A DNA stretch of 64,000 bases from Pararhodobacter sp. SW119 (GTDB taxonomy: Bacteria > Pseudomonadota > Alphaproteobacteria > Rhodobacterales > Rhodobacteraceae): positions 1-64,000 of the forward strand of contig NZ_JADDJF010000010.1 in the NCBI RefSeq assembly GCF_017811755.1. Direction: 5' to 3'. Position 1 is the stretch's first letter. Every line of letters starts with the position of its first letter. Below the pieces are notes generated by a model. That model was not told the origin of the DNA, ran no database searches, and saw only the letters and a program-made list of their open reading frames with translations. Of the stretch, positions 1 to 58,975 are shown in pieces. A program made the translations under genes and the position numbers.

Positions 1-57
1 ACGGCGACGACTTAACGCGTGAAATCAAGCGCTTGGAAAATTGTGCACGCGTGCACA
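1..57 (+). repeat. Intergenic palindrome element, copy A (left part cut by window edge)
   Basis: First of seven copies of a fixed-geometry intergenic element. The visible part has TCA at 25-27, CTTGG at 32-36, a 6-bp spacer, and the perfect 16-bp palindrome TGTGCACGCGTGCACA at 42-57. The paired tetramers that the other copies carry 31 bp before CTTGG would lie just outside the window. The palindrome differs from the common GTCCACGCGTGGAC form by one base pair changed on both sides (GTGCACGCGTGCAC). It lies 10 bp beyond the stop codon of the leftward GNAT gene and reads towards it. Confidence 0.75.
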
Positions 58-67
58 CCCTTCGGTT

Positions 68-772
68 TCAGCCGCCATTTCCGGCCAGAAGCGGGTCGCG
101 GGCGACCAGGACGGGAGCTGTCAGCACCGCCAGGCTTTCCTTCTGCCGGCCCGCCGCGTCGAAATTCGCGGGATCGAGCCAGCGTTCATAGGCCGCCTGC
201 AGCGCGGGCCAGTCGCTGTCGATGGCGGCGAACCAGGCAGTGTCGCGGTTGCGGCCCTTGACGACGCCCGCCTGTCGGAAGACCCCCTCATAGCTGAAGC
301 CGAACCGCTCCGCCGCCCGGCGCGACGGCAGGTTCGCGGCGTCGCATTTCCACTCGAACCGCCGGTAGCCCGCCTCGAACGCCCAGCGCATCAGCAGCCA
401 GACCGCCTCGGTCGCTTCGCGGGTGCGCTGCAGGCGGGGGGCGAAGGTCAGCCAGCCGGTCTCGATCGAGCCGGCGCGCGGGTCCATCCGCATCAGGCTC
501 ATCGTCCCGCCCAGCCGCCCGTCCGCCATGCGGATCGCGTAGTGCAGCGGGTCGTGCAATAGCCGCGCCGCGTCCAGCCAGCCGCCATAGGCCGCCAGAT
601 CGGCGAAGGGGCCGACCGGCAGGTAGCGCCACATCGCGCCCTCGGTATCCTTGGCGAAGGCGTCGAAAAGCCCCGCCGCGTGGTCGGGCATCAGCGGCTC
701 CAGCCGGACATACCGCCCCGCCAGCGGCGCGCGGGGCGGCAGGGGCGGCGGGGTCCAGCCGGACAGGTCCAT
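68..772 (-). CDS. GNAT family N-acetyltransferase (RimJ/RimL type)
   Basis: A 234-residue protein of the acetyltransferase_3 group, which transfers acetyl from acetyl-CoA to an amino group on a protein N-terminus or small molecule. It opens with a RimJ/RimL-like segment (GRYVRLEPLMPDHA, about residues 19-32). Later come the beta-strand region GGTMSLMRMDP and a C-terminal CoA-fold stretch (FEWKCDAANLPSRRAAERFG, about residues 139-158) typical of family members that act on the N-termini of ribosomal proteins or on amino acids. The start codon lies 1 nt after the aspS stop, so it is probably co-transcribed behind aspS. The substrate cannot be told from sequence. Confidence 0.85.
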   Translation of the reverse strand: MDLSGWTPPPLPPRAPLAGRYVRLEPLMPDHAAGLFDAFAKDTEGAMWRYLPVGPFADLAAYGGWLDAARLLHDPLHYAIRMADGRLGGTMSLMRMDPRAGSIETGWLTFAPRLQRTREATEAVWLLMRWAFEAGYRRFEWKCDAANLPSRRAAERFGFSYEGVFRQAGVVKGRNRDTAWFAAIDSDWPALQAAYERWLDPANFDAAGRQKESLAVLTAPVLVARDPLLAGNGG

Positions 773-773
773 C

Positions 774-2552
774 TCACGCCTCGGGCGGCAGGACGCGCAG
801 GCGCAACTCGCGCAACTGCTCGTTCGAGGGTTTGCTGGGCGCGCCCATCATCAGATCCTCGGCGCGCTGGTTCATCGGGAACATGATGACCTCGCGGATA
901 TTCGTCGTGCCGGCCAGCAGCATCACGATCCGGTCGATCCCCGCCGCGCAGCCCCCATGCGGGGGCGCCCCGTAGCGGAAGGCCTTGACCATGCCGCCGA
1001 ACCGCTTCTCGACCTCCGCGCGTCCGTAGCCGGCCAGTTCGAACGCCTTGAACATGATCTCGGGCTTGTGGTTGCGGATCGCGCCCGACAGGATCTCGTA
1101 GCCATTGCAGGCGAGGTCGTACTGGTAACCGTTGACCGCCAGCGGATCGCCCGACAGCGCCTCCAGCCCACCCTGCGGCATCGAGAACGGGTTGTGCGAA
1201 AAGTCGATGGCGCCGGTGTCGGCGTCCTTCTCGTACATCGGGAAATCGACGATCCAGGCGAAGCGGAAACCGCTTTCTTCGCTCAGCTTCAACTCGCGCC
1301 CGATCTCGACCCGCGCCTTCGCCGCGACCGGCTCGAAGCTTTCGGGCTTACCGCCGAGGAAGAACGCCGCGTCGCCCGCGCTCAGGCCCAGTTGCCGTCG
1401 GATCGCCTCGGTCCGCTCGGGGCCAATGTTCTTGGCGATGGGACCGGCACCCGTGGTCTCGCCGCCCTCCTCGCGCCAGAAGATGTAGCCCATGCCCGGC
1501 AGACCCTGCGCCTGGGCAAAGCTGTTCATCCGGTCGCAGAACGCGCGGCTGCCGCCGGTGGGTGCGGGGATGGCACGGATCTCGGTGCCGGCGTTTTCCA
1601 GCAGCTTCGCGAAGATGCCGAAGCCCGAGCCGCGGAAATGCTCGCTCACCTCCTGCATCTCGATCGGGCAGCGCAGGTCGGGCTTGTCGGTGCCGTATTT
1701 CCGCAGGCTTTCGGCAAAGGGGATGCGCGGCCAGTCGGCATGGACCGTCTGCCCGTCGGCGAACAGTTCGAAAACGCCCTGGATGATCGGCTGCATCGTG
1801 GCGAAGACATCCGCCTGCTCGACGAACGACATCTCGACATCGAGCTGGTAGAAATCGGTGGGCGAGCGGTCGGCGCGCGGATCCTCGTCGCGAAAGCAGG
1901 GCGCGATCTGGAAGTACTTGTCGAAGCCCGCGACCATGATCAGCTGCTTGAACTGCTGCGGCGCCTGCGGCAGCGCGTAGAACTTGCCCGGATGCAGCCG
2001 CGACGGGACCAGGAAATCGCGCGCGCCCTCGGGCGAGCTGGCGGTGATGATCGGGGTCTGGAATTCGGTGAAGCCGGCATCCCACATCCGGTCCCGGATC
2101 GACCGAACGACGTTCGAGCGCAGCATCATGTTGGCGTGAAGCGTCTCGCGCCGCAGGTCGAGGAAGCGGTAGCTCAGGCGCGTTTCCTCGGGGTAGTCGG
2201 GCTCGCCGAAGACGGGCAGCGGCAGCTCGTCGGCCTGCCCCAGCACGCGCAGCTCGCGCACGTAGACCTCGATCGCGCCGGTCGGGATCTTGGTGTTGAC
2301 CAGGCTTTCGTCGCGCGCCTTGACCGTCCCGTCGATCGAGATGACCCATTCGGCGCGCACCTTTTCCATCGCCTTGAAGGCCGGGCTGTCGCTGTCGGCC
2401 AGCACCTGGGTGACGCCGTAGTGGTCGCGCAGGTCGATGAACAGCACGCCGCCGTGGTCGCGCACGCGATGTACCCAGCCCGAAAGGCGCACGTCCTGTC
2501 CGACATGTTCGGACCTGAGGGCGGCGCAGGTGTGGCTGCGGTAGGGGTGCAT
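774..2552 (-). CDS. aspS: Aspartyl-tRNA synthetase
   Basis: A 592-residue class II aminoacyl-tRNA synthetase that charges tRNA-Asp, and in many alphaproteobacteria also tRNA-Asn (non-discriminating form). The N-terminal OB-fold anticodon-binding domain ([20 protein letters not shown]) is followed by the catalytic domain, with motif 2 around [19 protein letters not shown] and motif 3 at the C-terminus ([16 protein letters not shown]). The bacterial GAD insertion lies between them. Length matches bacterial AspRS (about 590). The downstream GNAT gene follows after 1 nt. The 96-bp upstream gap separates it from the ATPase gene on the same strand. Confidence 0.97.
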
Positions 2553-2648
2553 CGCGGGCTCCGTTCGACTGGGTCAAGGCTCGCCGCGATACACCCCGGC
2601 AGACCGCCGGAGTCAAGCCCGGCACGGCGGGCACGGGGCGGCCCGCGC

Positions 2649-3494
2649 TCAGCCCTCCTCGCCCAGGGCGTCCGGTCGGAAGCCGAAGAAGACGCCATCC
2701 TGCAGGACCTCGACCACGGTGGCGCGGCGCACATCGGGCGCCTCTGCCGCCGCGGCGTAGGTCAGCGCCAGATCGCAGAGCTGGTTGACCGGCCGCGGCA
2801 ATCCGCCAGTGGCGCGATGCACCATCTCGGCAGCCTGCCGGCTGAACATGGCGGGGCTGCCCCCGGCGGCCTGCAGGCGCGCGGCGATATACCCGCCCAC
2901 CCCGTCCAGATCCAGCGCACCAAGGTGCCGGCCGACCGAAACCCGCTGCGCGAAGGCGGCCATTTCCGGCGCCCGGATAAGTCGGGCCAGCGGCGGCTGA
3001 CCGACCAGGAGCAGCTGAATCCCCGCCCCGTCATCCGTCGCCAGGTTCCCCATCAGGCGCAAGTCCTCCAGCGCGGCGGGGCTCAGGTTCTGCGCCTCGT
3101 CGATGACGACCAGGATGCGGCGGCCGGCGCCGGCCTCGGCCTCCAGCGCCGCGCCCAGCAGGTCGAACGCATCGCCGCTGGTCGCGTCCAGGTCCAGGGC
3201 CGCGCCGACCCGGTCCAGAATTCCCGCCTGTCCGGGCCGCGGCGTCGTGATCACGCCCGCGGTCACGCTGTCGTCCAGTTCGGTCAGGAACTGCGCCAGC
3301 ACCGTCGACTTGCCGCTGCCGATCTCGCCGGTCAACACCGTCACCGGCGCACCCGAGGTCAGGCCGAAGTCGAGCACCGCATAGGCCATCCGATGCGCCG
3401 GCGACCAGTACAGGAACGCCGGGTCCGGCGCGGCCCCAAAGGGCGGCGCAGCCAGGCCGAAATGGTCGATGTAGTGCTGGCCTGCCTGTCGCAT
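2649..3494 (-). CDS. ExeA-like AAA ATPase
   Basis: A 281-residue AAA ATPase of the ExeA/GspA type. The N-terminus (YIDHFGLAAPPFGAAPDPAF, about residues 8-27) is the usual ExeA lead-in. Walker A is GEIGSGKST (about 56-64) and Walker B is ILVVIDEAQNL (about 125-135). There is no transmembrane or peptidoglycan-binding C-terminal extension, so it resembles the stand-alone ATPases often found near polysaccharide or secretion loci rather than full GspA. No secretion genes lie beside it, so its partner is unknown. The region from 3495 to 3765 upstream carries no convincing gene. Confidence 0.8.
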   Translation of the reverse strand: MRQAGQHYIDHFGLAAPPFGAAPDPAFLYWSPAHRMAYAVLDFGLTSGAPVTVLTGEIGSGKSTVLAQFLTELDDSVTAGVITTPRPGQAGILDRVGAALDLDATSGDAFDLLGAALEAEAGAGRRILVVIDEAQNLSPAALEDLRLMGNLATDDGAGIQLLLVGQPPLARLIRAPEMAAFAQRVSVGRHLGALDLDGVGGYIAARLQAAGGSPAMFSRQAAEMVHRATGGLPRPVNQLCDLALTYAAAAEAPDVRRATVVEVLQDGVFFGFRPDALGEEG

Positions 3495-3765: not shown

Positions 3766-4428
3766 ATGAACCGACGCTTCCGCTCATCGGCCGACAGCCA
3801 CGCCCCGATCGTGCTCTGGATCGTGGCGCTCTGCGCCCTGCCCGAGGTCGTCTTCACCCTGCTCGAAACCCCGCTTTTCGACCTGCCCGATGTTCGGCGT
3901 GCGGCGCTGCTCGCTTTCGCCTTCTGGCCGCCGCTGCTGTCCGGGGGCTGGCAGACGCTCTGGCCGGGGCAGTCGGTCTCGATGTTCGTCACCTATGCGT
4001 TCCTCCACGTCGGCTTCCTGCACCTTCTGTTCAACATGCTCGTGCTCGTGCAACTGGGCCGCGAATGCGTCGGAAGGCTGGGGGAATGGGGCTTTTCGGT
4101 CCTCTACCTCCTTTCGGCGATCGGCGGCGCGGCGGGCTTCCTCCTGCTCCCCTCATCGTCGGGTCCGATGGTCGGCGCCTCGGGCGCGATCTTCGGGCTT
4201 TTCGGCGCGGTGCAGTACTGGGACTGGCAGCGCCGGCGGGCGACGGGCGCGTCCCTGGGCCCGTTCTGGAAGGTGATGTTCGGGCTTGTGCTGATGAACG
4301 TGCTGCTCCTGCTGCTGGTCGGCAGCTACCTCGCCTGGCAGGCGCATCTGGGCGGCTACATTGCCGGATTTCTGGTCGCGCGCCTGGTCACGCCGACCCT
4401 TGGGCACCGCGCGCGCGGATTTCATTGA
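3766..4428 (+). CDS. Rhomboid family intramembrane serine protease
   Basis: About 220 residues with six hydrophobic segments. The rhomboid hallmarks are all present: an HxxxN loop (FLHLLFNMLVL), the GxSG nucleophile motif in MVGASGAIFGLFGA, and the catalytic His in AHLGGYIAGF in the last helix. It should cleave transmembrane substrates in the inner membrane. The ATG at 3766 is chosen because the upstream in-frame extension (to 3604) is polar and unlike family members. It is a single gene. A hairpin with a possible promoter for the next operon follows it. Confidence 0.88.
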   Translation: MNRRFRSSADSHAPIVLWIVALCALPEVVFTLLETPLFDLPDVRRAALLAFAFWPPLLSGGWQTLWPGQSVSMFVTYAFLHVGFLHLLFNMLVLVQLGRECVGRLGEWGFSVLYLLSAIGGAAGFLLLPSSSGPMVGASGAIFGLFGAVQYWDWQRRRATGASLGPFWKVMFGLVLMNVLLLLLVGSYLAWQAHLGGYIAGFLVARLVTPTLGHRARGFH

Positions 4429-4449
4429 CAAACACGGCAAAGATACGTT

Positions 4450-4487
4450 GCATTCCGGCAAGGAATGCGCGCTAAACAAAATATGAT
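4450..4487 (+). promoter_or_regulatory. Putative operator hairpin and -10 box ahead of the ABC operon
   Basis: A perfect 7-bp inverted repeat, GCATTCC (4450-4456) and GGAATGC (4462-4468) around a 5-nt centre, lies just before a TATGAT box at 4482-4487. The operon's first codon (TTG) is at 4507. A symmetric site directly upstream of a -10 box is a natural place for a repressor or activator. There is no T-run after the dyad, so a role as terminator for the rhomboid gene is less likely. The regulator is unknown. Confidence 0.4.
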
Positions 4488-4506
4488 CAAAAACTGACGG
4501 TGCCTC

Positions 4507-5295
4507 TTGACCGCCCCTGCCCCCGGAACGACCCCGGTCATCGCCATTCGCGGATTGCACAAGCGCTATGGCCCGCTCGAGGTGCTCAAGGGCATCGACG
4601 TGACGGCGTTGCCGGGGCAGGTCATCTCGCTGATCGGGTCTTCCGGTTCGGGCAAATCCACCCTGCTGCGCTGCTGCAACCTGCTGGAAGACAGCCAGCA
4701 GGGCGAGATCCTGTTCGAGGGCGAACCGGTGCGCTGGCGCGGCAGCGGGCTGCATCGCCACCCCGCCGACAAGGCGCAAGTCGTCCGGATCCGCACCAAC
4801 CTGTCGATGGTCTTCCAGAGCTTCAACCTCTGGTCGCACATGACCGTGCTGCAGAACGTGATGGAGGCGCCGCTTACCGTGCTGAGACAGGACCGCGCGG
4901 AAGTCGAGGCCCGGGCGCGGGAATTGCTCGACAAGGTCGGTATCGGCGACAAGGCCGATGTCTACCCCGCGCAGATGTCCGGCGGCCAGCAGCAGCGCGC
5001 CGCGATCGCCCGCGCGCTCTGCATGGAGCCCCGCGCGCTTCTGTTCGACGAACCCACCTCCGCCCTCGACCCCGAACTGGAGCAGGAGGTGGTGCGCGTC
5101 ATCAAGGCGCTGGCCGAAGAGGGGCGCACGATGCTGCTGGTCACCCACGACATGCGGCTTGCAGCGGATGTATCGGACCACGTCATCTTCCTCCATCTGG
5201 GCCTGATCGAGGAAGAAGGGCCGCCCGAAACGCTTTTCGGGGCGCCACGCTCGGCGCGGCTGAAGCAGTTCCTCAGTGCGACCGAACCCGCCTGA
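4507..5295 (+). CDS. Polar amino acid type ABC transporter, ATP-binding protein
   Basis: A 262-residue ABC ATPase of the HisP/GlnQ/OccP group that powers import across the inner membrane. Walker A is GSSGSGKST (about residues 44-52), the Q-loop lies in FQSFNLW, the signature is MSGGQQQR (about 157-164), Walker B is LLFDEPTSALD, and the switch His lies in LLVTHDMRL. The start codon is TTG with a weak ribosome site, chosen because the protein then begins a normal distance before the first strand. It is the first gene of a seven-gene operon with its binding protein, two permeases and amine-ligase genes. Confidence 0.93.
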   Translation: MTAPAPGTTPVIAIRGLHKRYGPLEVLKGIDVTALPGQVISLIGSSGSGKSTLLRCCNLLEDSQQGEILFEGEPVRWRGSGLHRHPADKAQVVRIRTNLSMVFQSFNLWSHMTVLQNVMEAPLTVLRQDRAEVEARARELLDKVGIGDKADVYPAQMSGGQQQRAAIARALCMEPRALLFDEPTSALDPELEQEVVRVIKALAEEGRTMLLVTHDMRLAADVSDHVIFLHLGLIEEEGPPETLFGAPRSARLKQFLSATEPA

Positions 5296-5336
5296 AGAAG
5301 AAACGAAGAAAAACGCTCGAACCAAGGGAGACACAC

Positions 5337-6065
5337 ATGAAGAAACTGATCCTGACCCTCGGCGCGCTGGCGCTGGCAGCCACGACCGCCACCGCGCAGG
5401 ACGTGATCCGCATGGGCACCGAAGGCGCCTATCCGCCGTTCAACTTCATCAACGACGCGAACGAACTCGAAGGCTTCGAGATCGATCTGGGCAACGAGCT
5501 GTGCGCCCGTGCCAACCTGAACTGTGAATGGATCGTCAACGACTGGGACACGATCATCCCCAACCTGGTCGCCGGCAATTATGACACGATCATCGCCGGC
5601 ATGAGCATCACCGACGCCCGGCGCGAGGTGATTTCCTTCACCCAGGAATACAAGATGCCCGACCCGTCGCTCTATGCCGCGCTGGAAGGCACCGATCCAT
5701 CGGTGATCGAGAATGGCGTGATCGCGGCGCAGTCGAACACGATCCAAGCGGGTCATGTCGCCGAAACCGGCGCCGACCTGCTGGAATTCCCGACACCGGA
5801 CGAGACCATCTCGGCCGTCCGCTCGGGCGAGGCCGATGCGGTGCTGGCCGATGGCGACTTCCTGCGGACGATCGTGGGCGAGGCGGCGGATCTGGAGTTC
5901 ATCGGCGATCCGGTCTTCGTCGGCGGCGGTGTCGGCATGGGCCTGCGCCAGTCCGACACCGAGCTGCGCGAGACCTTCGACGCGTTGATCTCCGAAATGA
6001 AGGCGGACGGGTCGCTCAACGAAATGCTGATCAAATGGTTCGGTGAAGAGACGCCGACGTTCTGA
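5337..6065 (+). CDS. Periplasmic substrate-binding protein of the ABC importer
   Basis: A 242-residue family 3 (SBP_bac_3) solute-binding protein. The signal peptide MKKLILTLGALALAATTATA ends at about residue 20. The mature start RMGTEGAYPPFNFIN and the motif IDLGNELC are typical of the polar amino acid/opine/octopine subfamily. The ATG at 5337 follows an AAGGGAG ribosome site and is supported by the signal peptide. Two cysteine pairs (CARANLNC) may form a disulfide. The ligand is probably a cationic amino acid or amine, judged from the ligase genes downstream; this is inference. Confidence 0.92.
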   Translation: MKKLILTLGALALAATTATAQDVIRMGTEGAYPPFNFINDANELEGFEIDLGNELCARANLNCEWIVNDWDTIIPNLVAGNYDTIIAGMSITDARREVISFTQEYKMPDPSLYAALEGTDPSVIENGVIAAQSNTIQAGHVAETGADLLEFPTPDETISAVRSGEADAVLADGDFLRTIVGEAADLEFIGDPVFVGGGVGMGLRQSDTELRETFDALISEMKADGSLNEMLIKWFGEETPTF

Positions 6066-6116
6066 TCCGTAACCGGGTGGCGGGGCCCTGCGCCCCGCCA
6101 CCTGCGCAGGTGCGCG

Positions 6117-7872: not shown

Positions 7873-9207
7873 ATGCGTGACTGGTTCCGCCACCACCCCG
7901 ACGTCAAGACCATCCGTATCGCCGCCGCCGACCTCAACGGCCAGGCCCGGGGCAAGCGCGTGCCGGTCCGCTTTGCCGAGAAGATCGTGAAGGAAGGCAC
8001 GCGGTTTCCCTATTCGGTCCTCAACCTTGACATCTGGGGCGAGGATATCGAGGACAGCCCCCTGGTCTTCGAGACCGGCGATGCCGATGGCGTCCTGAAA
8101 CCGACCGAACGCGGCTTCATGCCGATGCCCTGGCTGGAGGCGCCGACCGCCCTTCTGCCGATCTGGATGTTCCACGAGGACGGCAAGCCCTTCGCCGGCG
8201 ATCCGCGCCATGCCCTGGCGCGGGTGCTGGAACGCTACGCGGCGCGCGGCATGCACCCGGTCTGCGCGACCGAGCTGGAATTCTACCTGATCGACGATTC
8301 GGGGCGCGAGCTGCGCGTCCCGCCCTCGCCCCGGTCGGGCAAGCGCCGCCCCGGCGCCGACACGCTGGCCCTGCGCGCGCTCGATGCCTTCGACCGCTTC
8401 TTCACCGACCTCTACGACGCCTGCGAGGCGATGGACATCGACGCCGACACCGCAATCTCCGAAAGCGGCATCGGCCAGTTCGAGATCAACCTGCTGCATT
8501 CCCCCGACGTGCTGAAGATCGCCGACGACACCTGGCTCTTCAAGATGCTAGTCAAGGGCGTCGCGCGCCGCCACGGTTTCGCCGCCAGCTTCATGGCCAA
8601 ACCCTATGCCGAACAGCCGGGCAGCGGCATGCACATGCATTTCTCGGTCATCGACACCGAGGGGCGCAACCTTTTCGACGACGGCGGCGCGAAGGGGTCC
8701 CCGCTTCTGCACCAGGCCATCGCCGGGTGCCTGGCCTTCATGCCCGACATGATGCTGCTTCTGGCGCCGCACGCCAACAGCTACGAACGCATGCAGCCCG
8801 GCGCCCATGCCCCCACCGGCGTCAGCTGGGCCTACGAGAACCGCACCGCGGCGATCCGCGTGCCCTCGGGCAGCCACAAGGCGCGGCGGATCGAGCATCG
8901 GGTTGCAGGCGGCGACATCAACCCGTATCTGATGATGGCCGGCGTTCTGGGCACGGCGCTGATCGGCATCGAGGACGAAATGACCCCGCCGCCGCCGATC
9001 ACCGGCAATGCCTACGACCTCGACCTGCCGCAACTGCCCACAACCTGGGCCGGCGCGCTGGACAGCTTCGAGCAGAGCGCCGCGATGAAGCGCATCTTCG
9101 CGCCGCAACTGATCGATAACCTGGTCCGCACCAAGCGCCAGGAGATTCACTACATGGCCGAGCTTTCCGAAGCGGAGGTGCTCGACCTCTACCTGGAAAC
9201 CGTCTGA
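7873..9207 (+). CDS. Glutamine-synthetase-like gamma-glutamyl ligase (PuuA/GlnT type)
   Basis: A 444-residue class I glutamine-synthetase fold enzyme. The catalytic domain shows the metal/Glu motif ATELEFYLIDDSG, the ligand strand GQFEINLLHS, the His loop GSGMHMHFSV and the ATP motif RTAAIRVPSG. The N-terminal beta-grasp domain is short (IRIAAADLNGQARGKRVP), as in gamma-glutamylpolyamine synthetases and unlike housekeeping GlnA. It probably couples glutamate to an imported amine using ATP. It lies in the importer operon, next to an amidotransferase and a second ligase. The exact amine is not known. Confidence 0.85.
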   Translation: MRDWFRHHPDVKTIRIAAADLNGQARGKRVPVRFAEKIVKEGTRFPYSVLNLDIWGEDIEDSPLVFETGDADGVLKPTERGFMPMPWLEAPTALLPIWMFHEDGKPFAGDPRHALARVLERYAARGMHPVCATELEFYLIDDSGRELRVPPSPRSGKRRPGADTLALRALDAFDRFFTDLYDACEAMDIDADTAISESGIGQFEINLLHSPDVLKIADDTWLFKMLVKGVARRHGFAASFMAKPYAEQPGSGMHMHFSVIDTEGRNLFDDGGAKGSPLLHQAIAGCLAFMPDMMLLLAPHANSYERMQPGAHAPTGVSWAYENRTAAIRVPSGSHKARRIEHRVAGGDINPYLMMAGVLGTALIGIEDEMTPPPPITGNAYDLDLPQLPTTWAGALDSFEQSAAMKRIFAPQLIDNLVRTKRQEIHYMAELSEAEVLDLYLETV

Positions 9208-9214
9208 GGCCAGA

Positions 9215-9892
9215 ATGCTGATCGGAATACTGCAGACCGGCTACGCCCCCGACGCGCTGCGCGCGCAGGGCGACTATCCGGACATGTTCACCCGGCTGCT
9301 TGCCGGCAAGGGGTTCGACTTCCGCACCTGGCCGGTGGTCGATGGCGAATTCCCCGAAAGTGTGACCGACGCCCAGGGCTGGCTGATCACCGGCTCGAAG
9401 CATGGCGTCTACGAGGGTCACGCCTTCATCGCCCCGCTTGAGCAGTTCGTGCGCGACGCCTTTGCCGCCGGCGTACCGGTCGCGGGCATCTGCTTCGGCC
9501 ACCAGATCATGGCGCAGGCGCTTGGCGGCAAGGTGGAAAAATACGCCGGCGGCTGGTCAGTCGGGCCGACCGAGTACGATTTCGACGGCGAAATGCTGAC
9601 CCTCAACGCCTGGCACCAGGACCAGGTGGTGGCACCCCCGCCGGGGGCGCGCGTCATCGCATCGACCCCGTTCTGCGCCTACGCCGGCTTCGCCTATGAC
9701 GACCACGGGATCTCGGTCCAGCCGCATCCCGAATTCGCCGACGATTTCGTCGCCGGCCTGATCGAAACCCGCGGCCGCGGCCTCGTCGAGGACGACCTGC
9801 TGGACGCCGCCCGCGCCCGGCTCGGCCGACCGCTGGACGCCGACCGGATCGCCGACCGGATCGCCACTTTCTTCCGGGCCAGCCGCAACTGA
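9215..9892 (+). CDS. Class I glutamine amidotransferase-like protein
   Basis: A 225-residue GATase1 domain protein. The nucleophile elbow is GICFGHQ (Cys at about residue 93) and the His-Glu pair lies in QPHPEFADDF. It resembles stand-alone GMP-synthase-like amidotransferases rather than the slightly longer PuuD (gamma-glutamyl-GABA hydrolase, peptidase C26), but a hydrolase role on gamma-glutamyl intermediates fits its place between two gamma-glutamyl ligases. It starts 7 nt after the upstream ligase. Function in the pathway is inferred from context only. Confidence 0.8.
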   Translation: MLIGILQTGYAPDALRAQGDYPDMFTRLLAGKGFDFRTWPVVDGEFPESVTDAQGWLITGSKHGVYEGHAFIAPLEQFVRDAFAAGVPVAGICFGHQIMAQALGGKVEKYAGGWSVGPTEYDFDGEMLTLNAWHQDQVVAPPPGARVIASTPFCAYAGFAYDDHGISVQPHPEFADDFVAGLIETRGRGLVEDDLLDAARARLGRPLDADRIADRIATFFRASRN

Positions 9893-9924: not shown

Positions 9925-11286
9925 ATGTCAAACTGGACGAACAAGATCCCCGAAGCCGCGCGCGACTATCTTGCCGGCCGACGCCTTGATGAAATCGAAT
10001 GCATCCTGCCCGACATCGCCGGGGTTGCCCGCGGCAAGGCGATGCCCGCCTGGAAATTCGACAAGCAGGCCAGCTTCTACCTGCCGACCACGATCTTCCT
10101 GCAGACCATCACCGGCGACTGGGCCACGTCGCCCAAGGGCGAGGACGAATACAAGGAACCCGACATGACGCTGGTGCCCGATTTCGGCACCGCCACCGCG
10201 GCGCCCTGGACCGCCGACGTCACGCTGCAGATCATCCATGACGCCAGGGATACCGCGGGCGATCCGATCCCGACCGCGCCGCGCAACGTCCTCAAGCGGG
10301 TGATGAAGCTCTATGCCGACAAGGGATGGCGCCCGGTCGTCGCGCCCGAGATGGAGTTCTTCTTCGTCGCCCGCAACACCGACCCGAACAACCCGATCAT
10401 CCCGCCGGTCGGCCGCACCGGCCGCCGCGCGGCGGCCAAGCAGGCCTATTCCATGTCCGCCGTCGACGAATACGGCAAGGTGATCGACGACGTCTACGAT
10501 TTCGCCGAGGCGATGGGACTCGAGATCGACGGCATCCTGCAGGAAGGCGGCGCCGGCCAGGTCGAGATCAACCTGGCGCACGGCGACCCGGTCGCGCTGG
10601 CCGACAACATCTTCTACTTCAAGCGGATGATCCGCGAGGCCGCGCTGCGCCACGACTTCTTCGCCACCTTCATGGCCAAGCCGATCGAGGGCGAACCGGG
10701 CTCGGCCATGCACATCCACCATTCGGTGGTCGGCATCGAGTCGGGCGGAAACATCTTCACCGGCGCGGACCAGGCCGAGACACCGGCCTTCATGCAATTC
10801 ATCGGCGGCATGCAGCGCTATCTGCCCTCGGCGGTGGCGCTGATGGCACCCTATGTGAACAGCTACCGCCGCTACGTCCCCGACTTTGCCGCGCCGATCA
10901 ATCTGGAATGGGGGCGCGACAACCGCACCACCGGGCTGCGCGTTCCCCTCTCCACACCCGAGGCCCGCCGGGTCGAGAACCGCCTCGCCGGAATGGACTG
11001 CAACCCCTATCTCGGCATCGCGGCCAGCCTTGCCTGCGGCTATCTCGGGCTGCTGAACGACAGCAAGCCGCGCGCGGAATGCGTCACCAACGCCTACATG
11101 GGCAACGACGAACTGCCGCTGACCCTGGGCGACGCGATCGACCTGCTGGACGAGGATCAGGACCTGCGCGAGGTGCTGGGCGGCGAATTCGTGGACCTCT
11201 ACGTCGCGGTGAAGCGCCACGAGTACAAGGAATTCCAGCAGGTCATCAGCCCGTGGGAACGCGAGCACCTGCTGCTCAACGTCTGA
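9925..11286 (+). CDS. Second glutamine-synthetase-like gamma-glutamyl ligase
   Basis: A 453-residue paralogue of the ligase two genes upstream, with the same fold: APEMEFFFVARNTD, GQVEINLAHGD, GSAMHIHHSVVG and NRTTGLRVPLS. It differs in its N-terminus (EIECILPDIAGVARGKAMP) and has an insertion after the ligand motif. Two such ligases with one amidotransferase in an ABC operon suggest either two amine substrates or two steps of one pathway. It is the last gene of the operon. No clear intrinsic terminator follows, and intergenic element copy B lies 88 nt downstream. Confidence 0.87.
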   Translation: MSNWTNKIPEAARDYLAGRRLDEIECILPDIAGVARGKAMPAWKFDKQASFYLPTTIFLQTITGDWATSPKGEDEYKEPDMTLVPDFGTATAAPWTADVTLQIIHDARDTAGDPIPTAPRNVLKRVMKLYADKGWRPVVAPEMEFFFVARNTDPNNPIIPPVGRTGRRAAAKQAYSMSAVDEYGKVIDDVYDFAEAMGLEIDGILQEGGAGQVEINLAHGDPVALADNIFYFKRMIREAALRHDFFATFMAKPIEGEPGSAMHIHHSVVGIESGGNIFTGADQAETPAFMQFIGGMQRYLPSAVALMAPYVNSYRRYVPDFAAPINLEWGRDNRTTGLRVPLSTPEARRVENRLAGMDCNPYLGIAASLACGYLGLLNDSKPRAECVTNAYMGNDELPLTLGDAIDLLDEDQDLREVLGGEFVDLYVAVKRHEYKEFQQVISPWEREHLLLNV

Positions 11287-11373
11287 GCGCGCGCCCCGAA
11301 CGAGCCCCGTCGCGCACTCCGGCCAAACGCCACGCCAGGGCATGACCCCCGGTATCCTTGCGCCGGGCAGAAG

Positions 11374-11447
11374 TTTCGTTTCGGTTAACGACGGTCGTTT
11401 ATGCGTTAAAATTCAACGCCTTGGGGGGGGGCTGCACAAATTTGTGC
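11374..11447 (+). repeat. Intergenic palindrome element, copy B
   Basis: TTTC (11374-11377), 7 bp, TTAA (11385-11388), a 31-bp spacer with TCA at spacer positions 25-27, CTTGG (11420-11424), 9 bp, then the perfect palindrome GCACAAATTTGTGC (11434-11447). This is the only copy with a 9-bp instead of 6-bp (or nearly 6) gap before the palindrome; the extra length is a G-run. It sits in the 230-bp convergent gap between the second ligase gene and rpoH2, and reads into the 3' end of rpoH2. A TAAAAT sequence 16 bp after TTAACG could be a -10 box. Confidence 0.85.
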
Positions 11448-11516
11448 GCCCCTCCGGCCAAGCTAGGGTCCTGACCGTACCGGGGGCGCCCCCGCCCTCC
11501 GACCGGATTGCACGCC

Positions 11517-12395
11517 TCAAGCCAGCAGCGTCTGCACCTCGCGCGACTGACCTTCCAGGTTCTTGCGCATCTTGGCAAAGGCCGCGGCCTCGATCTGGCG
11601 GATGCGTTCCTTCGACAGGCCCAACTCGTCGCCCAGCGATTCCAGCGTCCGCGCCTCCTCGCGCAACTTGCGCTCGGTGACCACGTAGCGCTCGCGCTCG
11701 CTCAGCGCCATCATCGCCTTCGCCAGCCAACTCCGCAGCGTCTCGCGATCATGGCTGACTTCAACACGGTCGGCGGCTTGCGTGGCGTCGTCCTCGATCG
11801 TCTCGATCCACTCGCGCCCGTCCTCGTCGTGCGACTGGACCGCGTTCAGCGACAAGTCCGATCCCGCAAGCCGGCCCTGCATCATCTCGACATCCGCCAG
11901 CGGCACGCCGATCGACTGCGCGATTCGCTGGCGCAACTGGTGCCCGTCCAGTTCCTCGCCCGTGCCCTGCGCCTCGCGCAGCAACTGGGCCTGAACGCGG
12001 CGCATGTTAAAGAAAAGCGACTTCTGGCTCGAGGTCGAGCCGGTGCGCACCATCGACCAGTTGCGCATCACGTAATCTTGGATCGAGGCCTTGATCCACC
12101 AGACCGCATAGGTCGAAAACCGCACGCCACGGTCGGGGTCGAACTTGTCGGCCGCCTTCATCAGGCCCAGCCCGGCCTCCTGGATCAGGTCGTTCATCGG
12201 CGCGCCGTAATGGCGGAACTTCGACGCCATCGAAATCGCAAGCCGCATGTAGGCCGTGATCAGCCGGTGAAGCGCCGCCTCGTCGCGCTCGTCGCGCCAA
12301 GCGTAGGCAAGCCGCAATTCGGTCTCGGCGTCCAGAAGCTCGGCGCGCATCGCGGACCGCGAAAAACGGCGCTGTTCGATCCCGTCAAGTGCCAT
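11517..12395 (-). CDS. rpoH2: RNA polymerase sigma factor RpoH2 (RpoH-II)
   Basis: A 292-residue sigma-32 family factor. Region 2 holds RLAISMASKFRHYGAPMNDL, with FSTYAVWWIKASIQDYVMR as the 2.3/2.4 segment, followed by the RpoH box area SQKSLFFNMRR. Region 4 ends with the helix-turn-helix LESLGDELGLSKERIRQIE. The family in Rhodobacter is the second RpoH, placed under RpoE and used in singlet-oxygen and oxidative stress responses; that role is taken from the family. It is transcribed alone, with a 109-bp gap upstream to queG. Confidence 0.9.
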   Translation of the reverse strand: MALDGIEQRRFSRSAMRAELLDAETELRLAYAWRDERDEAALHRLITAYMRLAISMASKFRHYGAPMNDLIQEAGLGLMKAADKFDPDRGVRFSTYAVWWIKASIQDYVMRNWSMVRTGSTSSQKSLFFNMRRVQAQLLREAQGTGEELDGHQLRQRIAQSIGVPLADVEMMQGRLAGSDLSLNAVQSHDEDGREWIETIEDDATQAADRVEVSHDRETLRSWLAKAMMALSERERYVVTERKLREEARTLESLGDELGLSKERIRQIEAAAFAKMRKNLEGQSREVQTLLA

Positions 12396-12504
12396 CTCGA
12401 TCTCCCCGTGTTTCCCAAGAATACGGGACGCAGCGCAGATCGGTTCAAAAAGCTGATTGAATTATTCGTGAACGATCCTCACGCGCCCTTGAAGCGACAC
12501 CCGC

Positions 12505-13551
12505 CTATCCCGAAACCGCCGAAAGCCGCGCGACGGCCCAGTGGGCCGCATCTGCGACCGCGGAATCGGGATCATCGCGCAGCGCCAGGGCGGCGGGCAA
12601 GAGCCGCGCACTGCCGGAATTGCCGATCGCGTAAAGCACGTTGCGCACGAAGCGGTCGCGCCCGATCCGCTTGATCGGCGAGCCGGAAAAGCGCGCGCGA
12701 AACGCCGCATCGTCCAATCCCGCCAGTTCGGCCAGATCCGGACCGACAAGATCGGGCCGCGCGGCATAGCGAATTTCGGAGGAGGTGCGGGCGAACTTGT
12801 TCCAGGGGCATATCGCCAGGCAATCATCGCAGCCGTAGATCCGGTTGCCCATCATCGGTCGCAACTCGGGGTCGACGGGGCCGCGCTGCTCGATCGTCAG
12901 GTAGGAAATGCAGCGGCGCGCATCCAGCTGGAACGGCGCGGGAAAGGCCCGCGTCGGACAGATGTCCAGACAGGCCGTGCACGACCCGCAACGCTCCCTC
13001 GCCGGTTCATCGACCGGCAATTCGAGCGTGGTGAAGATCGCCCCCAGAAAGAACCAGTTGCCCAGATCGCGCGACAAAAGGTTCGTGTGCTTGCCCTGCC
13101 ACCCCAGCCCGGCGACGGCCGCAAGCGGTTTCTCCATCACCGGCGCGGTATCGACGAAGACCTTGATCTCGCCCCCCGCCGCCGCGATCAGCCAGCGTCC
13201 CAGACGCTTCAGTCGCTTCTTGACCACGTCGTGATAGTCGCGACCCATCGCATAGACCGAGATCGCGCCGGCCTCGCGCGCCTCCAGCAGCTTCAGCGGG
13301 TCGACCTCGGGCGTGTAGGTTTCCGCCAGCATGACGACCGACCGCGCCTCGGGCCACAGCGCGCCAGGGTCCGCGCGCCAATCGATCCTGTCTTCCATCC
13401 AGCCCATCTGCCCGTGTCGGCCCTCGGCGACGAACCGGCGCAACCGCCCGCCCGCCTCCGGGATCGCATCGGGCCGGGTCACGCCGATCGCCGCAAAGCC
13501 CTCGGCGCGCGCCTGTTCGGCCAGCGCCGATTTCAGCGCCGCGCCGTCCAT
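12505..13551 (-). CDS. queG: Epoxyqueuosine reductase
   Basis: A 348-residue cobalamin- and iron-sulfur-dependent enzyme for the last step of queuosine tRNA modification. Two 4Fe-4S clusters are visible: [16 protein letters not shown] and [16 protein letters not shown]. The N-terminal QueG domain carries [15 protein letters not shown] and [15 protein letters not shown]. The start [19 protein letters not shown] at 13551 is chosen because the upstream extension lies in GC-hairpin DNA. A short HEAT-like tail ends the protein. A leader with two hairpins separates it from the upstream GST gene. Confidence 0.93.
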
Positions 13552-19285: not shown

Positions 19286-19358
19286 TTTCCATCCGGTTAA
19301 TTATTTGACCGAGATCCCATGATTTCAGATACTTGATCGGCGGTCCACGCGTGGACCG
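19286..19358 (+). repeat. Intergenic palindrome element, copy C
   Basis: TTTC (19286-19289), 7 bp, TTAA (19297-19300), a 31-bp spacer with TCA at spacer positions 25-27, CTTGA (19332-19336), 6 bp, then the core GTCCACGCGTGGAC (19343-19356), extended to a perfect 18-bp palindrome at 19341-19358. It lies in the 376-bp convergent gap between petC and the BKACE gene. Apart from the petC terminator and this element, I see nothing in that gap. Confidence 0.9.
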
Positions 19359-36007: not shown

Positions 36008-36077
36008 TTTCATTGCGGTTAATTCGCGCGATTCCGAATTCAATTTCAAGTGGTTAGGAAAGTGTCCACGCGTGGAC
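36008..36077 (+). repeat. Intergenic palindrome element, copy D
   Basis: TTTC (36008-36011), 7 bp, TTAA (36019-36022), about 30 bp with TCA one base earlier than in other copies, GTTAG in place of CTTGG (36053-36057), 6 bp, then GTCCACGCGTGGAC (36064-36077). A single-base deletion in the spacer explains the 70-bp length. The 447-bp gap 35778-36224 holds this element, the ftsZ terminator and, closer to lpxC, a CCCCGTTCGGGG hairpin near 35892; the lpxC promoter must also be there but no sure boxes were found. Confidence 0.88.
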
Positions 36078-42800: not shown

Positions 42801-42872
42801 GGTCCACGCGTGGACCATCGGCCAAGGCACTGATTTCAATAAACAAGGTATTTTCTGTCAACCGGATTTTAA
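42801..42872 (-). repeat. Intergenic palindrome element, copy E (facing murB)
   Basis: Read leftward: TTAA (42872-42869), 7 bp, TTGA (42861-42858), exactly 31 bp with TCA at spacer positions 25-27, CTTGG (42826-42822), 6 bp, GTCCACGCGTGGAC (42815-42802), extended by one pair to 16 bp. TTGACA with TGAAAT 17 bp later makes a good promoter pair, so transcription could enter murB 107 nt further on. It starts 21 nt after the putative stop of the small membrane protein gene. Confidence 0.88.
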
Positions 42873-42893: not shown

Positions 42894-43125
42894 TCACCGC
42901 CGCCACTTGACCCATATCCCGGCCAACGCCGCGCCCAGGCCGGCCGGCGCGGCCATGAAGACCCTGCGCCGCGCGCGCCGCCACGATCAGCGCAACCGCC
43001 GCCACTGCCAGGGCGGACGCGAGCCACCAGGCAGCCCGCGCCCCCCGCCACCGCGCAATGACCCAACCCACCGAAAAGCCGATCAGCGCCGCGACGGTCG
43101 GGATCAGCCAGATCCGCCATTCCAC
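42894..43125 (-). CDS. Small membrane protein between murC and murB, apparent +1 frameshift
   Basis: A GTG start 1 nt after the murC stop opens a hydrophobic protein (EWRIWLIPTVAALIGFSVGW, then WLASALAVAAVALIVAARAA). After the codon for Gln in CAGGG the frame turns into Arg/Gly-rich sequence that runs through element E to murB. Skipping one G there gives VFMAAPAGLGAALAGIWVKW and an immediate TGA at 42894, a natural hydrophobic end and about 76 residues in total. I read this as a small membrane protein gene with a one-base insertion or sequencing error. The alternative is a 144-residue unshifted product. Confidence 0.45.
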
Positions 43126-53415: not shown

Positions 53416-53488
53416 TTAACAAATTCTTTCAATCACGGATTTTATCTCTTTCTGTCAGCCACTTGATACACGGTCCGCTAGCGGACCG
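53416..53488 (+). repeat. Intergenic palindrome element, copy F
   Basis: TTAA (53416-53419), 7 bp, TTTC (53427-53430), 31 bp with TCA at spacer positions 25-27, CTTGA (53462-53466), 6 bp, then GTCCGCTAGCGGAC (53473-53486), inside an 18-bp perfect palindrome at 53471-53488. The order of the two tetramers is the reverse of copies B, C, D and G. It is in the 311-bp gap 53235-53545 between the EamA start and the ileS 3' end; apart from this element and the EamA promoter area I see nothing there. Confidence 0.88.
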
Positions 53489-53545
53489 CCCGTTTCTTGA
53501 CGAAAAGAACCCCGGAATCAGGTCCAGAAAGCCGCCGGAATCGCC

Positions 53546-56503: not shown

Positions 56504-56722
56504 CGGAAAACCTTCGCAGAAATTCGGGGGCGGCGGCGGCGGTGCGGGCATACGGCACCTGGTCCCGGCGACTCGGTCAGAGCGCCGGGCAGCTAATTCG
56601 GGGGATCGCCACGCAGAGTGTCCACATGCCCCGCCTTATAGGGTCCCGCCGCGCGCGGGTCCAGAGGGGCGCAGGACACCGAATCCGCTTGCATTCGTTG
56701 CGGATGCGGCGACTATTACCAC

Positions 56723-57235
56723 ATGGAAACAAGCTCTGATTCACCCCGGTCGATCCTGTGGGACATCCCCTCGGGCAAGGAGTATTACGAGCGTTCGCTC
56801 ACCGTGGCGCTGCTGCGCGCGCGCGAGGTCACGATGCGGCGCTTCAAGCGCTTTGCCGACGCCCATGACCTGACCCTGCCGCAATGGCGGGTCCTGCGCG
56901 CGCTGGCCGATGGCGACCCCCTCGATGCCGGCACGCTGTGCCAGCGCTGCGTGATCCTGCCGCCGTCGCTGACGCGCATCCTGCGGGCATTGAGCGAGCG
57001 CGGGCTGATCGCCCAAGTGGCCAGCACGGATGCGCGCCGCCACACGGTGACGATCACGCCCAAGGGCAAGGCGCTCTTTGAGACGCTGGTCGTGCAGTCC
57101 GACGGCATGCGCCGCGAGATCGAGGACGCCTTCGGCCCCGAGCGGATGCAGCATCTGCTCGACCTTCTCAACGATCTGCGGATCATCACCGAAGCGCTGC
57201 CGCAACCCGAACCGGGGCTCAACGGCCACTCCTGA
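56723..57235 (+). CDS. MarR family transcriptional regulator (HpaR-like)
   Basis: A 170-residue winged-helix regulator. The MarR core has VTMRRFKRFADAHDLTLPQW, the recognition helix area ILPPSLTRILRALSERGLI and the wing DARRHTVTITPKGKALF. The N-terminal layout is like HpaR, which represses homoprotocatechuate catabolism, but no hpa genes lie near it, so its targets are unknown. It is convergent with yqgE (5-nt gap) and divergent from ileS. Confidence 0.85.
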   Translation: METSSDSPRSILWDIPSGKEYYERSLTVALLRAREVTMRRFKRFADAHDLTLPQWRVLRALADGDPLDAGTLCQRCVILPPSLTRILRALSERGLIAQVASTDARRHTVTITPKGKALFETLVVQSDGMRREIEDAFGPERMQHLLDLLNDLRIITEALPQPEPGLNGHS

Positions 57236-57240
57236 CGGGG

Positions 57241-57804
57241 TCAGGCCCGCCCGGCGGTGGCCGAAAGCGTGCGCGAGTCGACCCCGATCGAACGCAGGGC
57301 GGCGTGCCATTGCGCTTCGCCGGGGGCATCGGTGAAGATCAGCGCCTCTTGCGCGTCGCAGGTCAGCCAGGCGTTTTCCGCGATCTCGCCTTCCAGCTGA
57401 CCCTCGCCCCAACCGGCATACCCCAGCGCCAGCATCCAGGCCGAAGGCCCCTTACCCTGCCCGATCGCCGTCAACACCTCGGTCGAGGCGGAGAGTGCAA
57501 GCCCCGCGGGCAACGGCTGCGAGGCCCCGGGCTCAGTCAGGTCGTTGCGGTGAAGCACGAAACCGCGCGCCGGCTCGACCGGGCCGCCCAGCAGAACCGG
57601 GCGATCCTCGTCCAGCCCGGCATCGTCGATCGACAACTGATCCAGCACTTCGCGCACCCGCAGATTCGGCACCGGGCGGTTGACGACCAGCCCGAAGGCC
57701 CCCTCGGCCGAATGCGCGCACAGATAGATAACGCTGCGCTCAAACCGCGGATCCGCCATCGCGGGCGTCGAGATCAACATCTTGCCGGTGAGATCGAATG
57801 CCAT
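57241..57804 (-). CDS. YqgE/AlgH family protein (DUF179)
   Basis: A 187-residue cytosolic UPF0301 protein. Typical segments are DLTGKMLISTPAMADPRFER at the start, AHSAEGAFGLVVNRP, VLLGGPVEPARGFVLHR and LALGYAGWGEGQLEGEIAEN. The molecular role is unknown; in Pseudomonas alginate regulation was proposed for AlgH, but this is not firm. The ATG at 57804 gives the family start; the longer upstream frame overlaps the divergent gene's leader. Confidence 0.92.
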   Translation of the reverse strand: MAFDLTGKMLISTPAMADPRFERSVIYLCAHSAEGAFGLVVNRPVPNLRVREVLDQLSIDDAGLDEDRPVLLGGPVEPARGFVLHRNDLTEPGASQPLPAGLALSASTEVLTAIGQGKGPSAWMLALGYAGWGEGQLEGEIAENAWLTCDAQEALIFTDAPGEAQWHAALRSIGVDSRTLSATAGRA

Positions 57805-57925
57805 GGATCGAGTGTGCAGCGGCAGCAGCCGAAAGCCAAGGGGGGACGCGGCCGGAACGCGACACCCGGCGCGCTTCCCCGAGATGTGACTTCCCCCCGC
57901 GCGCAAGCCTGCTAAGCAGACGGTC

Positions 57926-58771
57926 ATGCACAGGATATCCCGCCCTTCCCCCCTTGCCCTGATCGCGCTCCTGGCGTTTTGCATCGTGCAGTTCGGCGCG
58001 CCGCGCGCGGCGGCGCAGGTCCTGGGCGGGCTGCCGCCCCAGATTCTGCACGCAGAACTTCGGCCGGGTTGGCAGACCGCGGAGGGCGTGCATGTCGCCG
58101 CCTTGCATCTGCAACTGGCCGAAGGCTGGAAGACCTATTGGCGGATTCCGGGCGAAGCCGGCATCGCGCCGCAGTTCGACTGGTCCCGCTCGCAGAATGC
58201 GGCGTCGGTGCGCGCGCGCTGGCCGCGGCCGGTGGTGTTCGATCAGAACGGCTATCGCAGCATCGGCTACGCCAACGAACTGGTCCTGCCGCTTGAGGTC
58301 ACGCCGCGGCGCGCGGGCCGGCCGGTCGCACTGCGCGGTGAATTCACGATCGGCATTTGCAGCGATATCTGCATTCCGGTGGACCTGTCGCTGGCGCAGG
58401 TCCTGCGCGGCGGCACCGCCCCCGACCCGCTGATCGCCGCCGCCCTGACGCGCGGGACCGAACCCGCGGCAGGCGCCGGACTTGGGCGTGTCGTCTGCAG
58501 CGTGCGTCCGGGCGACGGCATGGTCGAGCTGGAGCTTCGCGCGCAATTCCCCCGGCAAGGGGGGGACGAGACGCTGGTGATCGAGTTGCCGGGCACCGAT
58601 TACTGGATGACCCAGGCCACAAGCCGGCGCGAAGGCGGTGAACTGGTGGCGCGCGCGAACGTCCGCGGATCGAACGGGGGGGCAGTCGGAATAGAAAGAA
58701 GCGTCGTGGCCTTCACCATCCTGACGGAAACCCGGATGCTGGCGCATCAGGGCTGCAACGCCGCCGATTGA
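57926..58771 (+). CDS. Secreted DsbD-alpha-domain-like protein
   Basis: A 281-residue exported protein. The signal peptide (SPLALIALLAFCIVQFGAPR region) ends near AAAQ at about residue 30. The rest is a DsbD N-terminal (alpha)/DsbC-corrector-like domain: GWKTYWRIPGEAGIAPQFDW, and a cysteine pair in GICSDICIPVDLSL near residue 150. No membrane or thioredoxin domain of full DsbD is attached, so it is a stand-alone alpha-type domain, probably part of periplasmic thiol exchange or cytochrome c maturation. It is divergent from yqgE. Confidence 0.8.
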   Translation: MHRISRPSPLALIALLAFCIVQFGAPRAAAQVLGGLPPQILHAELRPGWQTAEGVHVAALHLQLAEGWKTYWRIPGEAGIAPQFDWSRSQNAASVRARWPRPVVFDQNGYRSIGYANELVLPLEVTPRRAGRPVALRGEFTIGICSDICIPVDLSLAQVLRGGTAPDPLIAAALTRGTEPAAGAGLGRVVCSVRPGDGMVELELRAQFPRQGGDETLVIELPGTDYWMTQATSRREGGELVARANVRGSNGGAVGIERSVVAFTILTETRMLAHQGCNAAD

Positions 58772-58903
58772 AGCCAGCGCCCCGAGTCTGCGGCCCGGCG
58801 CTTCAGCAGTATTCGCCACCGAACGCTGAGGTGCCACACGCGTAGGCCGCAAAGGTCGAAGCGGGCCGCCATGTTTCGGAAAAGACCATGCCCGGCGGAG
58901 GGG

Positions 58904-58975
58904 TTTCGATAAGGTTAAGAAAAATTCCCTTATCGCTTAGAATCAACACCTTGGAAGTTTGTCCAAGCTTGGACA
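58904..58975 (+). repeat. Intergenic palindrome element, copy G
   Basis: TTTC (58904-58907), 7 bp, TTAA (58915-58918), 31 bp with TCA at spacer positions 25-27, CTTGG (58950-58954), 6 bp, GTCCAAGCTTGGAC (58961-58974), extended to a 16-bp perfect palindrome at 58960-58975. A TAGAAT box 17 bp after TTAAGA fits a promoter. It is in the 277-bp convergent gap between the DsbD-alpha-like gene and the RND transporter and reads into the 3' end of the latter. Confidence 0.88.

Follow-up and report, generated by a model that had tools for sequence, protein, structure and literature searches.

A dispersed element with an IHF-type site and a palindrome in Rhodobacteraceae, a candidate binding site of a linked ParB/Noc-like CTPase

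Introduction

Which protein would read a palindrome that recurs between the genes of one bacterium, each time at a fixed distance from the same short motifs? The question is raised by positions 1-64,000 of contig NZ_JADDJF010000010.1 from Pararhodobacter sp. SW119 (GCF_017811755.1). In this stretch of 64,000 nucleotides, referred to as the window, an earlier note described seven copies of a non-coding element that matched no family known to its author. The genome of the strain is designated G000 and its sister genome G014, and other genomes and loci are cited by their G and L numbers.

The relations between gene and site reported below incline us to the view that the element is a dispersed binding (loading) site of a ParB/Noc-family CTPase encoded in the same genome, which would act on a DNA scaffold bent by IHF.

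Architecture of the element

All seven copies are present, each with a perfect palindrome (Table 1), and a covariance model built from 14 copies recovers seven of seven in the window. Read towards the palindrome, the element consists of a TTNN-N7-(GG)TTAA(C) box, a mixed AT-rich stretch, the 13-bp motif WWTCARNNNNTTR, 7 bp and a 14-bp palindrome, with a total length of about 71 bp. The common layout proposed in the earlier note holds overall; the departures are copy D, with GGTTAGG rather than CTTGG or CTTGA, copy A, which is cut and boxless, and copy F, where the order of the tetramers is swapped. The ‘TCA’ and ‘CTTGG’ that had been described as separate pieces are real, yet they form a single 13-bp motif, WWTCARNNNNTTR or near it. 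The fixed spacing is borne out, with the first base of the motif 27 bp left of the palindrome centre in six of the seven copies; it is 30 bp in copy B, whose core-to-palindrome spacing is 3 bp longer than the norm.

Among 113 rows, that is, copies with both palindrome and box (at least two rows being the same site in overlapping loci), the motif stands 7 bp from the 14-mer in 106, and the distance from GGTTAA to the motif is 27-29 bp in 111. Of the 126 G000 copies, 85 were used for conservation and 97 for palindrome pairing, the rest having no clear IHF anchor. The conserved positions are mainly those of the motifs, and the body is not a homogeneous repeat.

The 13-bp motif fits WATCAANNNNTTR, which we take to be the IHF consensus; by its sequence, this middle motif belongs to the IHF type. 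A reversed core is frequent in three of the four other genomes examined. The forward core runs from -27 to -15 relative to the palindrome centre, and the reversed one runs from -39 to -27 (or from -40 to -28). Among 30 copies from the four genomes, 12 have their best core in the forward direction with its first base at -27/-28, and 13 have it in the reversed direction, starting at -39/-40 and thus ending at -27/-28 (ties counted in both); the remaining cores lie elsewhere, including three of G061 at -43. Because an IHF match, whichever way it points, has an edge some 27 bp away from the centre of the palindrome, DNA bending is likely the constraint on core placement. The side held fixed is presumably the one at the bend centre in the IHF structure, and this edge lies about midway between box and palindrome.

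The box, with the consensus TTNN-N7-TTAA, stands about 57 bp from the palindrome centre and resembles a CtrA site, whose consensus we take to be TTAA-N7-TTAA. A palindrome half-site adjoins the box in seven of nine copies in G061, in two of four in G110 and in the single copy read in G163, but in none of ten copies in G060 and none of seven in G288. At L199 (G110, 1459-1537), two TGTGGATA sequences, which resemble DnaA boxes, replace the TTAA box in one copy.

A ParB/Noc-like gene lies beside the element

Clustering of 961 neighbour proteins gave no general trans gene shared beside the dispersed sites. The linkage of gene and site came to light through one two-genome cluster, whose ParB_N-like gene stands close to a site in G000 and to another in G413. 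The flanks of the G413 copies hold an AT-rich open reading frame (ORF) and then the ParB_N gene, and the arrangement in G000 is similar.

Close relatives of the ParB-like protein (E<=1e-50) occur in 11 of 17 element-bearing genomes versus 3 of 18 others (p 0.006), where the 17 leave out genomes recovered only by model R2, such as G085, G328, G329 and G382. Two of the three ‘other’ genomes with a close relative carry a linked site. Among 20 fetched loci of the gene, 16 have at least 2.4 kb of downstream sequence; L266, L273 and L281 were left out because their sequence ends too soon. A linked site on the same strand is found in 13 of the 16, with the palindrome 0.07-3 kb past the stop codon. 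Eight of these sites were recognized by core-plus-palindrome geometry, four by R2 (a model built on copies from eleven genomes) at E<=0.1, and the one in G016 by its palindrome and by eye. For L282, which encodes a weaker relative (37% over 135 aa), R2 was the only search and gave no match.

In the 20 fetched loci, eight of nine R2 matches at E<=0.1 are found no more than 3.5 kb downstream of the gene and on its strand (p 3.5e-8), and six of seven are so placed when the two discovery loci are set aside (p 3.4e-6). For a genome with 5-7 copies, the chance expectation in 3.5 kb is about 0.002-0.003, the copy numbers of G146, G079 and G327 being lower bounds.

Eight of the 13 linked sites carry a palindrome that is also present at dispersed copies of that genome. 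In the seven genomes with mainly one palindrome among the dispersed copies read, the linked one equals the dispersed one in six (G413, G136, G327, G079, G146 and G061), with only one or two dispersed copies read in some of the seven. In G000, both linked palindromes are among the dispersed types (16 and 10 of 126). We assign the palindrome to a ParB-like dimer on three grounds: gene and site are neighbours, the linked and dispersed palindromes agree in these six genomes, and the half-site recurs beside the box in G061, G110 and G163; the clamp protein thus probably binds the palindrome.

An hmmsearch of the PDB with the linked protein returned Noc first (7ol9, E 1.4e-12), then ParB/Spo0J. TIGR00180 matches 15 of 15 proteins at E<=0.01, the only member tabulated falling below the curated cut-off, and Pfam ParB_N matches 14 of 15. 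The motifs GLRxPxEV, LxSGxRR and ENxxR are invariant in the 15 proteins, and we take them to be the CTP-binding (CTPase) motifs.

An AT-rich slot with cargo that differs among genomes

In ten loci, GC content drops to 38-56% for about 0.6-2 kb after the stop codon of the ParB-like gene, which itself has 65-75%, and past the element it stands at 60-76%; G146 and G079 regain a high GC content over part of the DNA that precedes the element. The cargo differs among genomes, and three loci hold phage-defence genes (Table 1). A PADLOC scan of 11 ParB-linked cargo ORFs gave three strong matches and one weak match, and seven had none. The slots of G136, G016 and G146b look empty.

Such loci might instead mark the element as an attachment site or the end of a capture platform, where a recombination system would, in a somewhat integron-like manner, place AT-rich cargo in the interval from the ParB-like gene to the box side of the element, and solo copies would be spare or emptied sites. 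The GC drop, the empty slots and the varying, partly defensive cargo speak for this explanation. So does the frequency of AT-rich box-side flanks, which is higher at dispersed copies than at control gene ends both in other genomes (3/19 versus 3/181, p 0.012) and in G000 (4/127 versus 0/265, p 0.011; one of the four is ParB-linked). However, AT-rich cargo at dispersed sites is weak, and only one copy outside the ParB loci has a clear AT-rich ORF (L221). Besides the ParB-like gene (and overlapping ORFs), no family is shared by more than six of 19 loci compared. In the loci read for it, G413 and G000a, no second element lies at the far end of the cargo. A tyrosine-recombinase att site is rejected, as PF00589 counts are 7 and 8 in the element-poor G013 and G017 and 9-12 in five element-rich genomes, and none lies near the G413 sites, the nearest being 24 kb off. 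Overall, we consider a capture platform of this kind improbable.

Two neighbourhoods of the gene recur by eye. It lies upstream of a dinB-like gene in G136, G110 and G146 (L269, L278 and L275), and near an EamA-like transporter gene in G013, G016 and G017 (L277, L274 and L279). These may represent two chromosomal hot spots.

The palindrome is the changeable part

A search by centre finds a perfect palindrome of at least 14 bp in 102 of the 126 G000 copies. Of the 97 anchored 14-mers, 80 are perfect, 12 have one mismatch and five are out of register. The G000 palindromes mostly form a small combinatorial set (GTCC, GTGC, GCTC, GCGC, GCAC) with centres such as ACGCGT, AAATTT, GCATGC, AAGCTT and GCTAGC. 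In other genera, the palindrome tends to be specific to a genome and shared within it. Within the search pattern used, GTCCACATGTGGAC occupies 24 of 25 places in G288 and GTGCAAGCTTGCAC four of four in G413. TTTCACGCGTGAAA is the palindrome of the copies read in G136, G430 and G327, and those read in G146 have TTATCGC-GT/AC-GCGATAA; several forms are mixed in G110.

Orthologous sites of G000 and G014 retain the element with a different palindrome in the cases read (copy B, L113/L071, L115/L054, L123/L102, L129/L096 and L049/L098). Among nine G014 elements with both flanks alignable, G000 has a counterpart on the expected strand for four and lacks one for five. The scan pattern proposed in the earlier note therefore describes a real element too narrowly, because the palindrome is its changeable part.

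Placement at gene ends

Of the 126 copies, convergent genes enclose 89 and co-directional genes 35; one lies in a divergent region and one at the window edge. Set against all intergenic regions that measure 90 bp or more in these stretches, which were chosen for their elements, copies are in excess in convergent regions (p 3e-18) and in deficit in divergent ones (p 6e-12); one of the 126 overlaps a predicted ORF. In the other genera, one of 45 copies lies in a divergent region; three of the 45 overlap predicted ORFs, and six have no gene on one side. Copies avoid promoters and sit mostly at gene 3' ends. In all 20 close pairs (12 in G000 and eight in G014), the palindromes are outermost. At L091:4890-4963 and L223:9557-9628, from two genera, the palindrome faces the 3' end of a glmM-like gene (phosphoglucosamine mutase, by eye).

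This placement, with the strong hairpin potential of the palindrome, would suit a transcription terminator or RNA 3'-end hairpin, and at L244:1222-1320 (G014) a palindrome followed by TTTTTT looks like an ordinary intrinsic terminator. Yet a T run after the palindrome is absent by eye in most copies printed, and orientation shows no clear preference in co-directional spacers (20 versus 15 and 14 versus 10). The symmetry usually runs through the palindrome centre, and only 2 of 679 pair cells in the 97 anchored copies are G-T. An RNA hairpin is rejected on these last two grounds, and we regard a terminator as very unlikely.

Another possibility is that the elements are extragenic repeats like RIB/BIME, that is, IHF-binding palindromic repeats at transcript ends that spread passively; they might act on supercoiling or mRNA ends, and the ParB linkage would be incidental. 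RIBs, which are built on REP sequences, and the BIME elements of enterobacteria are the nearest analogue. The IHF-type site, the palindrome, the 3'-end placement, the patchy copy number and the near absence from divergent regions (1/125 copies versus 80/322 background regions) speak for this. On the other hand, the body is not homogeneous and conserved mainly at the motifs, the spacing is rigid and differs from that of RIB/BIME as the palindrome does, and the ParB linkage is not explained by chance. Y1/RAYT proteins do not co-occur with the element: the Y1 domain is absent from 12 other element-bearing genomes tested, on which ground a RAYT/REP origin is rejected, although G000 itself has Y1 matches (three stretches in two contigs). 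These observations leave a passive repeat with a low probability in our estimate.

Copy number and distribution

Over the window and other G000 stretches chosen for holding elements, 686 kb in all, a strict core-plus-palindrome scan finds 58 sites; G014 gives 15 in 194 kb, likewise chosen. In element-poor genomes, it finds none in 200 kb of G017 and one, boxless, in 200 kb of G013. No sites appear in reversed or Markov-shuffled copies of the sequence of these four genomes; the arrangement is not due to chance. An Rfam comparison of the window gave no match at the gathering score, and around copy E the only match at E<=1 is irrelevant, below threshold and outside the element. The refuting conditions named in the earlier note thus did not refute the element, as its copies exceed those in shuffled DNA and the window matches no Rfam family at that score.

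The covariance model built from 14 copies finds 144 places at E<=0.01 in the whole of G000, a lower bound, as 150 of 628 first-look candidates were scored. The hundreds of copies suggested earlier are thus supported as far as well over a hundred. Copy number is patchy: G413 has four palindromes, and G000 no fewer than 144 matches. In the model searches over more than 40 genomes, 12-81 candidates were scored per genome, so that these counts are lower bounds as well.

Model R1 matches in 3 of 60 relatives (G000 included) and in 15 of 394 family genomes, a sample of about one genome per genus; model R2 matches in 24 of the 394 at E<=0.001, and the distribution is patchy. R1 gave no match in 24 other families of the class, where it was the only model run. 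Within the genus, R2 at E<=0.01 matches 5 of 18 members (three matches in G003 and one in G017). This result and the ParB-linked sites in G016 and G017, two genomes that had been taken for element-free or almost so, rule out our first reading with R1, an absence from 15 genus members. Since the G016 and G017 sites were found by palindrome and spacing, R2 misses copies with reversed IHF sites or new palindromes. Named records with the palindrome type of G000 comprise nine loci from Pseudorhodobacter antarcticus, Tabrizicola and CSSed Rhodobacteraceae metagenome-assembled genomes, the last presumably of soda-lake origin.

Spread by viruses is rejected. One pattern with GTCCACGCGTGGAC gives no matches in viral contigs, and the ParB family is represented there by one generic relative (33% over the N-terminal half).

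A possible mechanism and its difficulties

We propose that a homodimer of the ParB-like protein binds the palindrome. IHF, to which a role is assigned because of the consensus match and the fixed bend position, would fold the DNA and bring the TTAA direct repeat up to the palindrome; either the same protein or a regulator like CtrA may then bridge or block at the box side. With CTP, the clamp would spread from the palindrome. At dispersed sites, the complex might organise or insulate the DNA between gene ends in a Noc-like manner, and at the home site, beside the gene, it would bound the AT-rich slot with its exchangeable genes, some of them for phage defence.

Several observations weigh against this proposal. 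The strongest difficulty lies in element-bearing genomes without a close ParB relative, combined with the variety of symmetric palindromes in the genus. No close relative was found in 5 of the 17 element-bearing genomes, namely G014 (92% complete), G163 (84%), G288, G430 and G029 (99-100%), and G060 has only a partial one at a contig end. Many palindrome types coexist in G000, G014 and G008, and these genomes have two, no and two close ParB genes, respectively; one relaxed homodimer would not force symmetry at each site. The linked palindrome of G422 differs from its dispersed ones. In G110 and G013, the gene is present and no site lies in the 3.25-3.5 kb downstream, and a second gene in G136 is followed only by a bare, boxless palindrome. 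Eleven ParB_N loci, the strongest ParB matches included, from the five genomes without a close relative have no site within about 1.5 kb on each side, a weak control, as such flanks would miss most linked sites. The odds that we give the proposal rest on the gene-site linkage itself and are unchanged by this control. Half-site position 3 covaries with residue 135 in the putative recognition region (p 0.001, n 12; L/S with C, A with T, Y with G or T), but this p carries no correction for relatedness or for the many columns tested, of which one more fits equally well; as a sign of recognition, the covariation is suggestive only.

More tentatively, and with a rather small probability in our judgement, the whole might form a chromosomal platform of a kind not described before, in which a ParB/Noc-like CTPase gene and one IHF-bent site frame a slot that captures and exchanges single foreign anti-phage genes. 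The site would have multiplied to hundreds in some lineages, with protein recognition and palindrome changing together.

If the binding-site interpretation is right, it would describe a system of the ParB/Noc type that works outside chromosome partition and has its sites at gene ends instead of close to the origin. The IHF scaffold would be new to such sites as far as the literature found shows, and the fast-changing palindrome would let one follow across genera how DNA recognition evolves. As a simple marker, the home site could help to locate accessory and defence genes in Rhodobacteraceae, because the cargo lies between the stop codon of the ParB-like gene and the element.

Relation to known systems

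REP elements are dispersed extragenic palindromes that are species-specific, and the element is like them in these respects. A lambda-type attL comprises a core, the H' IHF site and the P'1-P'2 arm sites; its palindromic core, IHF bend and arm repeats stand at distances like those of the element. Unlike attL, the element occurs in tens to hundreds of copies, and no linked integrase was found at the G413 sites or in the 19 loci compared.

NBS, the binding sites of Noc, are given as TATTTCCC-GGGAAATA and parS sites as TGTTTCAC-GTGAAACA in PMC7383237, which also treats the change of ParB/Noc specificity and describes Noc orthologs as confined to Firmicutes; spreading of Noc from NBS is described in PMC8429893. 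As in these systems, the sites here are short and palindromic, NBS too occur chromosome-wide, specificity has diverged within the family, and the best PDB matches are Noc. Unlike them, the element combines its palindrome with a TTAA direct-repeat box and an IHF-type site, both at fixed distance; its half-sites are spaced 6-2-6, it lies at gene 3' ends, and the gene stands beside AT-rich cargo. A survey of ParB-CTPase proteins outside partition finds them often orphan and linked to mobile elements (PMC12704722). VirB, a ParB-CTPase anti-silencer (PMC10770331, PMC10653881), likewise acts from specific sites, there against the silencing of AT-rich DNA, but its sites are upstream of promoters and the element lies at gene ends. 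Other motif pairs near gene 3' ends are reported in PMC5217627, and REP elements are treated in PMC5082802 and PMC12306157. In our literature searches, none of five palindromes appeared in print, and no title or abstract listed there described the combination of IHF site, box, palindrome and ParB.

Features of the window and of related loci

Table 1. Copies of the element in the window, ParB-linked sites, cargo genes and box-side half-sites
Feature	Position or genome	Strand	Description
Copy A	1..57	+	Cut at window edge, box missing; core 23-35 AATCAAGCGCTTG, 9/9 IHF consensus positions; palindrome 42-57
Copy B	11374..11447	+	Box 11374-11388; IHF-type core 11411-11423; run of G; palindrome 11434-11447
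Copy C	19286..19358	+	Box 19286-19300; IHF-type core 19323-19335; palindrome 19341-19358
Copy D	36008..36077	+	Box 36008-36022; IHF-type core 36044-36056; palindrome 36064-36077, facing ftsZ 3' end
Copy E	42801..42872	-	Box 42858-42872; IHF-type core 42823-42835; palindrome 42801-42816
Copy F	53416..53488	+	TTAA then TTTC box near 53416-53430; core 53453-53465; palindrome 53471-53488, facing ileS 3' end
Copy G	58904..58975	+	Box 58904-58918; core 58941-58953 (9/9 consensus); palindrome 58960-58975; convergent genes around
Linked sites	G413, G422, G008, G000 (two), G136, G079, G327, G146 (two), G061, G016, G017	same as gene	Downstream of the ParB-like gene
DRT RT_UG20	L283 (G413) 3987-5624		PADLOC 3.7e-198; AT-rich stretch between ParB-like gene and element
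OLD/GajA-like nuclease	L272 (G061) 11076-12806		PADLOC 4e-61; AT-rich stretch between ParB-like gene and element
GmrSD/HEC-06	L270 (G079) 8093-9556		PADLOC 1e-160; AT-rich stretch between ParB-like gene and element
DUF4238	G000		Cargo; weak match, 9e-4
SocA/Panacea	G146		Cargo
DUF3800 and VasI-like protein	G327		Cargo
Half-site GTCCAC or GTGCAC	L134, L142, L146, L150, L154, L158, L045 (G061); L201, L211 (G110); L202 (G163)		Adjoining TTAA box

Copy C lies where a cytochrome c1 gene (+) and a BKACE gene (-) face each other with their 3' ends. Copy E sits between a tRNA gene and the start of murB. At 42968-43058 of the window, ARAGORN calls a 91-base tRNA-Ala(cgc), whose length would better suit a tRNA with a long variable arm.

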